Assembly (NCBI RefSeq): GCF_947486615.1
Contig: NZ_CANKUD010000005.1
Span: 186,001-250,000 of the forward strand
Length of the DNA: 64,000 nt
Direction: 5' to 3'
DNA from: an uncultured Modestobacter sp.
GTDB taxonomy: Bacteria; Actinomycetota; Actinomycetes; Mycobacteriales; Geodermatophilaceae
Shown: in pieces, positions 5,908 to 8,793 of the stretch
Position numbering within the stretch: position 1 is the first letter of the stretch
Layout: every line of letters begins with the position of its first letter
The notes under the pieces: model-generated
Database searches by the model: none
What the model saw: the letters and a program-made list of their open reading frames with translations, nothing else
Told to the model about the DNA's origin: nothing
Made by a program: the position numbers and the translations under genes

Positions 5908-5986
5908 CGGTGTCCGTGGTTGAGCGTTCCATCACAGTGGCGGTCCGGAAGTGGCAGCTGACCCGGGGGCACGGCACTCTGGACGG

Positions 5987-6055
5987 GTGGTCGAGCCGGG
6001 TTCGTTGACGCGTCGTCGCGCCATCGACCTGATGCGCGTCGCCAGCACGCTCTGA
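5987..6055 (+). CDS. predicted regulatory leader peptide upstream of metNIQ
   Basis: GTG ORF: M V E P G S L T R R R A I D L M R V A S T L *; resembles the actinobacterial RR(H)VDL.R.AS.LCR leader-peptide pattern of sulfur genes. Confidence 0.6.
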   Translation: MVEPGSLTRRRAIDLMRVASTL

Positions 6056-6164
6056 CGCGGCGCCGCCCCGTCCCTCCTGTCGAGGAGCTCCCGCGCCGGG
6101 TCGCCACACACGTGGCACCGCCGTCCGGGGAGCAGCGCCCGACCGCCCGCATCCTGCCCGAGGA

Positions 6165-6198
6165 CCACGCCCATGATCGAGCCACGCCCATGATCGAG
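6165..6198 (+). repeat. 17-bp perfect tandem duplication spanning the metN start codon
   Basis: CCACGCCCATGATCGAG at 6165-6181 and 6182-6198. Confidence 0.95.
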
Positions 6199-7278
6199 CT
6201 GTCCGACGTCCGCAAGGTCTTCCCCGCCCGCCGCGGCGCCGGCGAGGTGACCGCCGTGGACGGCGTCAGCCTGTCGGTGGCCCGCGGTGAGTTCGCCGGC
6301 GTGGTCGGCCCGAGCGGCTCGGGCAAGAGCACGCTGGCCCGGCTGGTGAACCTGCTGGAGCGGCCGACCTCCGGCACGGTCACCGTCGACGGCCGGGTGC
6401 TCACCGACCTCGACGAGGCCGGGGTCCGCGAGGCCCGCCGCAGCATCGGGATGATCTTCCAGCACTTCAACCTGCTCGACTCGCGGACCGCGGCCGGCAA
6501 CGTCGAGCACCCGCTGGAGCTGGCCGGGGTCGGCCGCACCGAGCGCCGCCGCCGGGTCGCCGACCTGCTGGACCTGGTGGGCCTGGCCGACCGGCACGCC
6601 GCCCGGCCGGGGCAGCTCTCCGGCGGGCAGAAGCAGCGCGTCGCCATCGCCCGCGCGCTGGCCGCCCGCCCGTCGGTGCTGCTCTGCGACGAGGCCACCT
6701 CGGCCCTGGACCCGGCCAGCACCGCCGGCGTGCTGGACCTGCTGCGTCAGGTGCGCGCCGAGCTGGGCCTGACCGTGCTGCTGATCACCCACGAGATGTC
6801 GGTGGTGCGGGCGGTCTGCGACAGCGCCGTGCTGATGAGCGCCGGCCGGGTGGTCGACGGTGGCCCGCTGACCGAGGTGCTCGCCCGCCCGGACTCGGCG
6901 CTGGCCGCCCAGCTGGTACCGGCACCGGCCGCGGCGGACACCGGGAACGGCGCGCTGGTGCAGCTCACCGTCACCGACGCCAGCCCGCAGGGCCTGGTGC
7001 TGCAGACCCTGACCGCCGAGCTCGGGCTGTCGGTCGAGGTCGCCGCCGGCTCGGTGGAGACCGTCGCCGGCCGCCGCTTCGGCCGACTGCTGCTGCGGGT
7101 CGAGGGCGACGACGGCCGGCTGGACCCTGCGCTGGCCCGGCTCCGCGCGGCCGGCGCGCTCGTCCAGCGCACCACCGCCGGTGACCCGCGCCCGGCGCCC
7201 GCCGCCGACGACGAACCACCTGCCGAACAGGAGCCCGACGTGCAGCGCCTCGCCGACGCCCCGGACGTGCAGCGGTGA
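6190..7278 (+). CDS. metN: methionine ABC transporter ATP-binding protein
   Basis: MIELSDVRKVFPARRGAGEVTAVDGVSLSV... Walker A GPSGSGKST, LSGGQKQRVAIARAL, C-terminal NIL-like domain; followed by MetI and MetQ. Confidence 0.93.
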   Translation: MIELSDVRKVFPARRGAGEVTAVDGVSLSVARGEFAGVVGPSGSGKSTLARLVNLLERPTSGTVTVDGRVLTDLDEAGVREARRSIGMIFQHFNLLDSRTAAGNVEHPLELAGVGRTERRRRVADLLDLVGLADRHAARPGQLSGGQKQRVAIARALAARPSVLLCDEATSALDPASTAGVLDLLRQVRAELGLTVLLITHEMSVVRAVCDSAVLMSAGRVVDGGPLTEVLARPDSALAAQLVPAPAAADTGNGALVQLTVTDASPQGLVLQTLTAELGLSVEVAAGSVETVAGRRFGRLLLRVEGDDGRLDPALARLRAAGALVQRTTAGDPRPAPAADDEPPAEQEPDVQRLADAPDVQR

Positions 7279-7934
7279 ACGACTGGTCGCGGATCGCCCC
7301 GCAGCTGCTGGACGCCACCGGCGAGACCCTCTACATGGTCGGTGTCGCCACCGCGCTGACCGTGCTGCTCGGCGTCCCGCTGGGGGTGCTGCTCACCGTC
7401 ACCGCCCCCGGCGCGCTCGCCCCGCACCCGCTGCTGAACCGGCTGCTCGGCCTGGTGGTCAACCTGGGTCGCTCGCTGCCGTTCATCATCCTGCTCGTCC
7501 TGGTTGCCCCGGTGACCCGCGGCATCGTCGGCACCACGATCGGCTCGACCGCGACGATCGTGCCGCTGACCATCGGCGCCGTCCCGTTCCTGGCCCGGCT
7601 GGTGGAGACCAGCCTGCGCGAGGTCGCGCACGGCAAGGTCGAGGCCACCCTCGCCATGGGCGCCCGCCGCCGGGACGTCGTCCGCAGCGTGCTGCTGCCC
7701 GAGGCGCTGCCCTCGCTGGTCGCCGGCGTCACCGTCACCGTCGTGGCGCTGATCAGCTACTCGGCCATGGCCGGCGCGATCGGCGGCGGCGGGCTGGGCG
7801 ACTTCGCCATCCGCTACGGCTACCAGCAGTTCCGCACCGACATCACGCTGGCCACCGTCGTCCTGCTGCTCGTGGTGGTGCAGCTCCTGCAGTGGGCCGG
7901 CGACCGCTGGGCCCGCCGCCTCGCCACCCACTGA
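7275..7934 (+). CDS. metI: methionine ABC transporter permease
   Basis: MNDWSRIAPQLLDATGETLYMVGVATALTVLLGVPLGVLL...; overlaps metN. Confidence 0.93.
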   Translation: MNDWSRIAPQLLDATGETLYMVGVATALTVLLGVPLGVLLTVTAPGALAPHPLLNRLLGLVVNLGRSLPFIILLVLVAPVTRGIVGTTIGSTATIVPLTIGAVPFLARLVETSLREVAHGKVEATLAMGARRRDVVRSVLLPEALPSLVAGVTVTVVALISYSAMAGAIGGGGLGDFAIRYGYQQFRTDITLATVVLLLVVVQLLQWAGDRWARRLATH

Positions 7935-7971: not shown

Positions 7972-8793
7972 ATGCGTGCGAAGAACCCCCTGGCCGCTGC
8001 TGCCGCCGTCGCGACCGCCCTGGTGCTGAGCGCCTGCGGCGGGGGCAGCGCCGAGCTGTCGGCCGAGGACGAGCCCCTGCGGGTGGGCGCCTCCCCGGTG
8101 CCGCACGCGGAGATCCTGCGGTTCGTCGACGAGGAGCTGGCCGACGACGCCGGTCTGGACCTGGAGATCGTCGAGTTCACCGACTACGTGCAGCCCAACG
8201 TGGCCCTGGACGACGGCTCGATCGACGCCAACTACTTCCAGACCATTCCGTACCTGGAGGAGCAGGAGGCCAACGCCGGCTACGACTTCACCGCGCTGGA
8301 GCCGGTGCACATCGAGCCGCTGGGCATCTACTCCGACTCGCTCACCGACCTCGCCGACCTGCCGGACGGCGCCACGGTGGCGATCCCGAACGACCCGACC
8401 AACGCCGGGCGGGCGCTGCGGCTGCTGGCCGCCAACGACCTGATCACGCTGGCCGACACCGGTGACGCGGCGCCGACCTCGCTGGACATCGAGGACAACC
8501 CGAAGGACCTGCAGATCACGGAGATCGAGGCCGCCCAGCTGCCGCGGTCGCTGGCCGACGTCGACGCCGCGGTGATCAACGGCAACTACGCGATCGACGC
8601 CGACCTGTCGCCGGCCGAGGACGCCCTCGCGCTGGAGGAGGCCGAGGACAACCCGAACGCCAACCTGGTCGTCGTGCGCGCCGGCACCGAGGACGACGAG
8701 CGCATCGGCCAGCTGGAGGAGCTGCTGCACTCCGACGAGGTGCGCACCTTCATCGAGGACACCTACGAGGGCGCCGTCATCCCCGCCTTCTGA
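7972..8793 (+). CDS. metQ: MetQ/NlpA family substrate-binding lipoprotein
   Basis: lipobox LVLSACGGG; PVPHAEIL...LDLEIVEFTDYVQPNVALDDGSIDANYFQTIPYLEEQ. Confidence 0.95.
   Translation: MRAKNPLAAAAAVATALVLSACGGGSAELSAEDEPLRVGASPVPHAEILRFVDEELADDAGLDLEIVEFTDYVQPNVALDDGSIDANYFQTIPYLEEQEANAGYDFTALEPVHIEPLGIYSDSLTDLADLPDGATVAIPNDPTNAGRALRLLAANDLITLADTGDAAPTSLDIEDNPKDLQITEIEAAQLPRSLADVDAAVINGNYAIDADLSPAEDALALEEAEDNPNANLVVVRAGTEDDERIGQLEELLHSDEVRTFIEDTYEGAVIPAF

Follow-up and report, generated by a model that had tools for sequence, protein, structure and literature searches.

Leader ORF and genes at the locus

The window, by which we mean the whole stretch of 64,000 nucleotides of Modestobacter sp. 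DNA that was analysed, carries the genes in the order recR, leader, metN, metI and metQ. The leader ORF (MVEPGSLTRRRAIDLMRVASTL*, positions 5987-6055, plus strand) was defined by its sequence, its match to a family model and its conservation. It comprises 22 codons followed by UGA and reads GTG GTC GAG CCG GGT TCG TTG ACG CGT CGT CGC GCC ATC GAC CTG ATG CGC GTC GCC AGC ACG CTC TGA. The ATG of metN lies at 6190, and the leader stop ends 134 nt ahead of it. An ORF of 22 codons with a GTG start ahead of metN had been proposed in a preliminary description of this DNA, and the sequence reads as described there. No Cys occurs at any position of the window leader peptide.

The three downstream genes lie on the plus strand. 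The gene metN (6190-7278) encodes an ATP-binding subunit of 362 aa, with TIGR02314 MetN as its best NCBIfam match (310.7 bits, cut-off 499.7); metI (7275-7934) encodes a permease, best matched by NF008049 MetI (203.2 bits, cut-off 212); and metQ (7972-8793) encodes a substrate-binding lipoprotein matched by NF008285 and TIGR00363 MetQ/NlpA, both under cut-off (206.8 vs 374). Methionine is the likely substrate of this transporter, but this assignment is not settled because all three genes score below the curated cut-offs. The metN start region probably has its Shine-Dalgarno sequence in the GAGGA at 6160-6164 (plus strand), and (C/G)GAGG is kept before metN in relatives. At the metN start of the window we also observed a 17-bp tandem duplication (6166-6199, CACGCCCATGATCGAGC twice) that was not seen in relatives. 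The GAGGA at 6160 is best placed for the first ATG (6173), which opens a 6-codon frame ending in a TGA that overlaps the metN ATG (ATGA).

The C-terminal part of the leader peptide connects it with a known family. Residues 7-20 score 26.8 bits with NF042934 (cis_reg_atten, 'putative leader peptide'), whose cut-off is 27, and the score becomes 28 bits when Cys-Arg substitutes for the window stop; three other stop-form peptides score 18.3-26.2 bits and the Cys form of relatives 29 bits. The conserved motif LTRRRAIDLMRVASTL (6005-6052, plus strand, codons 7-22), which is marked out by this match and by selection in the UAG species described below, contains the RRxxDLxRxxSxL pattern of actinobacterial Cys-attenuator leaders (NF042934/NF042933). 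The peptide had earlier been assigned to an actinobacterial leader family preceding sulfur genes; the motif, the NF042934 score and the metNIQ genes downstream all agree with that assignment. The window leader shares with the actinobacterial Cys leaders (NF042934, NF042933 Ms5788A, NF042936 Ms4527A) both this motif and the form of a short, putatively leaderless ORF ahead of sulfur genes, and the Cys form occupies the same locus in the window's relatives and in the outgroup. It differs from them in that the sensor Cys codon is replaced by UGA (by UAG in 13 relatives). For the leaderless polycysteine attenuators of mycobacteria, PMC9031893 cites Canestrari et al. 2020. A further leader of the Ms5788A type, ahead of a rhodanese gene, is present in the same genome (C2:534616-534657); its motif is RRTVDLCRLGSCLC, and its -10 hexamer TACTCT has the same spacing from the GTG as that of the window leader, but unlike the window leader it keeps its Cys codons, UGU at the sensor position among them.

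The Cys form is common across the order. A pattern scan found it in 94 of 150 sampled order genomes, with 0 for the control pattern, and the sensor Cys codon was TGT, not TGC, in 26 of the 29 order-wide leaders checked (L087-L116). This preference for UGU at the sensor was seen despite GC-rich genomes, where UGC would be expected. The metN leaders of two further genera (e.g. MALPIVTRDRAVDLAGTASCLCR, stop) retain TGT CGC TGA. In other family members, a SAM (S-box, RF00162) riboswitch precedes the metN leader (L070, 617-711, with the leader at about 718-780; also L068, L072 and L081), and the 3' end of the S-box abuts the Shine-Dalgarno sequence and ATG of the Cys-form leader, e.g. MWHGQISWARRHIDLCRTGTALCR. 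Such an arrangement could possibly provide two-input control by SAM plus cysteine. Upstream of metN in genome G041 (L078), a riboswitch-type leader retains the start codon and the final codons but has lost most of the ORF in between. At L080 (490-600), a SAM-IV riboswitch (RF00634) lies on the strand opposite to metN and probably serves a divergent gene.

Conservation of the leader and history of codon 23

A DNA search of 115 family genomes, together with reading of the matches, located the leader upstream of metN in 22 species, of which nine belong to the window's genus. A 72-nt block that begins just ahead of the start codon and runs through codon 23 aligned gap-free in all 22 species, with a mean column identity of 85%, and recR lay immediately upstream in 19/22 (the stretches in which recR could be located). 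Codons 2-6 vary freely, and codons 7-22 retain (L)TRRRAIDLMRxAxxL across the 22 species. In the 13 UAG species, codons 7-22 of the leader gave pS 0.22, pN 0.046 and pN/pS 0.21; metN of the same species gave pS 0.296, pN 0.068 and pN/pS 0.23. For the three UGA species alone the values were pS 0.09, pN 0.10 and pN/pS about 1, from few sites in species that are too close to each other. These results indicate that conservation of the leader ORF goes far beyond chance and that purifying selection acts on the peptide within the UAG clade. The preliminary description had proposed to align the region upstream of metN and to score TGA versus TGC, with equally common synonymous and nonsynonymous changes counting against a peptide; the frame proved to be kept gap-free, codon 23 could be scored as UGA or UAG versus UGU, and such equality was absent across the UAG clade, the three UGA species being too few for this comparison. 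The Met codon at position 16 was considered as a new sensor and rejected, Leu standing there in two species.

Codon 23 takes three forms in the 22 species. The window and two other species of its genus read CTC TGA, six congeners read CTC TGT CGG TGA (LCR, stop), and 13 species of two related genera have TAG. The UGA stop (6053-6055, plus strand) stands at the family's sensor Cys position, occupied by UGU in the six relatives and in the outgroup leaders, which bears out the earlier remark that a Cys codon is normal there. The same remark took the stop as peculiar to this copy, and this part has to be revised: the stop is clade-wide, being UGA in three species and UAG in 13. A tight-pattern scan of a collection with one genome per species (85,462 species; records close to the window's genome may be missing from it) gave 11 hits, each of them from Blastococcus and with TAG. 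Under a comparable pattern, 6 of 299 order genomes showed the stop form, every one of them in this family, and of 397 phylum genomes 1 did, namely the window itself; it was not found outside this family in these samples, although the patterns were strict and rarer or diverged stop forms could escape them. Beyond the leader stop, nothing in the frame is conserved in the stop-form species.

The history of the sensor codon was followed in gene trees. In the metN tree with outgroups, the UAG species form one clade; the window groups with the six UGU species, and the other two UGA species (G008 and G005) fall outside this group (supports 96, 99 and 100). The recR tree again nests the UGU six among the UGA species, with the order of G005 and G008 swapped. 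Monophyly of the three UGA species was rejected (AU p = 0.0009, with a program warning that 5,000 replicates are few). Given Cys in the outgroup and the nested UGU species, either two changes (a loss and a regain) or about four losses are required. Downstream of the leader, the six UGU species and the UGA species have dissimilar sequences, so a regain of Cys by local replacement is possible.

Promoter, spacer and RNA structure

Upstream of the leader, comparison among the species marks three elements on the plus strand. The conserved element TTGAGCGTTCCATCACA (5920-5936), located some 50-67 nt ahead of the leader start, is operator-like; a TTGAG-N6-TCACA-like element (of the TGAG-N6-CTCA type in relatives) is present at near-constant distance in nearly all 22 upstream regions. 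A putative -35 element, GTGGCA (5951-5956), corresponds to TTGGCA, GTGGCG or CTGGCA in relatives, and its core TGG(C/T), 17-18 nt ahead of the -10, is kept in all 22 species. The putative -10, CACTCT (5975-5980), is separated from the start codon by exactly 6 nt. In 22/22 species this hexamer has an invariant A (-11) and T (-7) and identical spacing to the GTG or ATG. A simple consensus scan of this region of the window did not find a sigma-70 promoter. Because the -10 stands exactly 6 nt before the GTG, the transcript probably begins at the leader GTG, i.e. it would be leaderless.

The spacer between leader and metN (6056-6189, plus strand) is C-rich and G-poor (C 0.48, G 0.31), as are the spacers of the UAG clade (on average C 0.52, G 0.31). 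C and G are about equal in the neighbouring genes recR and metN (both 0.36-0.39) and in the spacer that precedes the promoter. A Rho loading region may lie in this spacer, for which its C-richness is only a hint. No known riboswitch was found in the window spacer with Rfam, and no intrinsic terminator was found by scanning the window locus. A hairpin about 12-50 nt past the stop can form in nine UAG species, in which 4 of 17 pairs are changed on both sides and the covariation term is slightly positive; covariation is weak. Downstream hairpins in most species are no stabler than those of shuffled sequence (z-scores mostly -2 to +1). Masking of the Shine-Dalgarno sequence was also considered: placing a ribosome mask at codon 23 during folding gave no consistent change in the accessibility of the metN site. 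We do not claim a structural mechanism, since the folds are near shuffle level, the covariation is weak and the ribosome mask gave no consistent effect.

Proposed regulatory logic and rival explanations

We propose, with slightly less than even confidence, that the leader is a metNIQ attenuator drawn from the actinobacterial cysteine-attenuator stock, leaderless, in which Cys sensing has given way to control paced by termination. The stop occupies precisely the sensor codon in 16 species. In the most economical interpretation, the ribosome still comes to this position, and what happens there has changed from Cys decoding to termination. Transcription would start at the leader GTG and a ribosome would load immediately, make the conserved nascent chain TRRRAIDLMRxASxL and arrive at codon 23, the Cys sensor of relatives and a stop here. 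The pause used for regulation would turn into one at termination: holding the stop codon in its A site, the ribosome would be at the position of a Cys-starved one and would cover the start of the C-rich, G-poor spacer. Slow release would then keep the operon on, while fast release would expose the spacer and favour Rho termination or a hidden metN ribosome-binding site. Leader translation, pausing, Rho action and any ligand are all steps that we infer.

There is precedent for arrest at a stop codon. In TnaC (L-Trp) and SpeFL (L-ornithine) the nascent chain holds the ribosome while a stop codon occupies its A site, and TnaC, once stalled, shields a downstream Rho site on its leader (PMC8429421). 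The window leader has the feature that it would share with them, a conserved nascent chain followed immediately by a stop. The likeness concerns only the way of working, i.e. a conserved short nascent chain and then a stop in the A site; TnaC and SpeFL belong to a different phylum, no sequence kinship is claimed, and arrest of the window leader is only proposed.

A more specific version, in which the stop itself is the sensor and the leader senses methionine status through termination, appears improbable to us. Either the conserved nascent chain would arrest release upon sensing a sulfur metabolite, or a shortage of SAM would slow release through PrmC methylation. Because release factors need methylation by PrmC and PrmC uses SAM, a SAM-paced stop ahead of a methionine transporter would be an attractive arrangement. 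That bacterial termination needs PrmC methylation of the release factors is stated in a passage of PMC8904536.

The leader could instead be a decaying attenuator, in which Cys was lost, metNIQ became deaf to cysteine, and the peptide is either a fading relic or serves to keep the 5' end translated; we judge this rather unlikely. The defining Cys codon is missing, the three UGA species show no synonymous excess at their few sites (pN/pS about 1), and the downstream structure differs between the clades. Simple decay nevertheless agrees poorly with the data, because the UAG-clade peptide is under purifying selection and the UGU relatives nest inside the UGA species: the 16-residue motif has changed mainly synonymously in 13 UAG species of two genera, ORF length and promoter spacing have stayed constant, and six species inside the UGA group have Cys again (or still), requiring repeated loss. 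Of the alternatives offered in the preliminary description, lost function fits poorly, and sensing by termination still stands, as a proposal only.

An unlikely explanation is that the leader is constitutively 'on', a slow terminating ribosome permanently mimicking the Cys-starved one, so that metNIQ would be uncoupled and nothing would be sensed. The conserved nascent chain is not explained by this on its own, unless the chain slows release. The ribosome would nonetheless stand where it stands in the Cys form, neither a ligand nor a replacement sensor codon is evident, and the toggling between UGU and stop fits a regulation that is switched off and on.

That conservation here acts on the DNA or RNA itself, as a regulator site or structure with an incidental ORF, is very unlikely. 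It would agree with a synonymous divergence somewhat under that of metN (0.22 vs 0.30), but the changes concentrate at synonymous positions, the motif fits a peptide family with very different codons across the order, and the start codon is kept together with an in-frame stop or UGU-CGN-UGA.

Recoding of the stop as selenocysteine was considered since the window's genus has selB and tRNA-Sec. UAG-coded selenocysteine was reportedly described in Geodermatophilus and Blastococcus by Mukai et al. in 2016. The tRNA-Sec of the window genome (G000; C8:168236-168327, L129/L133) has the anticodon CUA, and in G000, G005 and G008 the formate dehydrogenase contains a single in-frame TAG, rather than TGA, with a GGUCU-loop hairpin 18 nt further on. 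In the window's own genome, two formate dehydrogenase genes (C5:79942-83052, L139; C1:379257-382295, L137) carry the in-frame UAG and the GGUCU-loop hairpin, so that, with the tRNA-Sec(CUA), this genome itself appears to use UAG-coded selenocysteine. The window UGA is therefore a plain stop, and selenocysteine at this codon is excluded. A SECIS-like hairpin in the window (CTCCT-GTCG-AGGAG) was rejected, its loop and position being absent from the two other UGA species and from the UAG species. In the UAG clade, whose leaders end in UAG and whose tRNA-Sec anticodon is also CUA, recoding appears unlikely because no GGUCU-loop hairpin follows and the frame beyond is not conserved; no such hairpin was found after the leader stops of the window, the UGA species or the UAG species. 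A Sec-bearing leader is thus hardly credible.

The leader is real and conserved, and there is good support for its anatomy; the logic of its regulation is a hypothesis. Actinobacterial leaders of this family are very widespread. Codon-based attenuators are understood as counters of charged tRNA, and here a lineage exchanged the sensor codon for a stop and kept the rest of the peptide, which suggests that regulatory control moved from reading cysteine to ending translation. Close relatives with a sense codon at the same place provide a natural experiment on the function of the non-cysteine part of these peptides, and it bears also on whether termination can pace attenuation.
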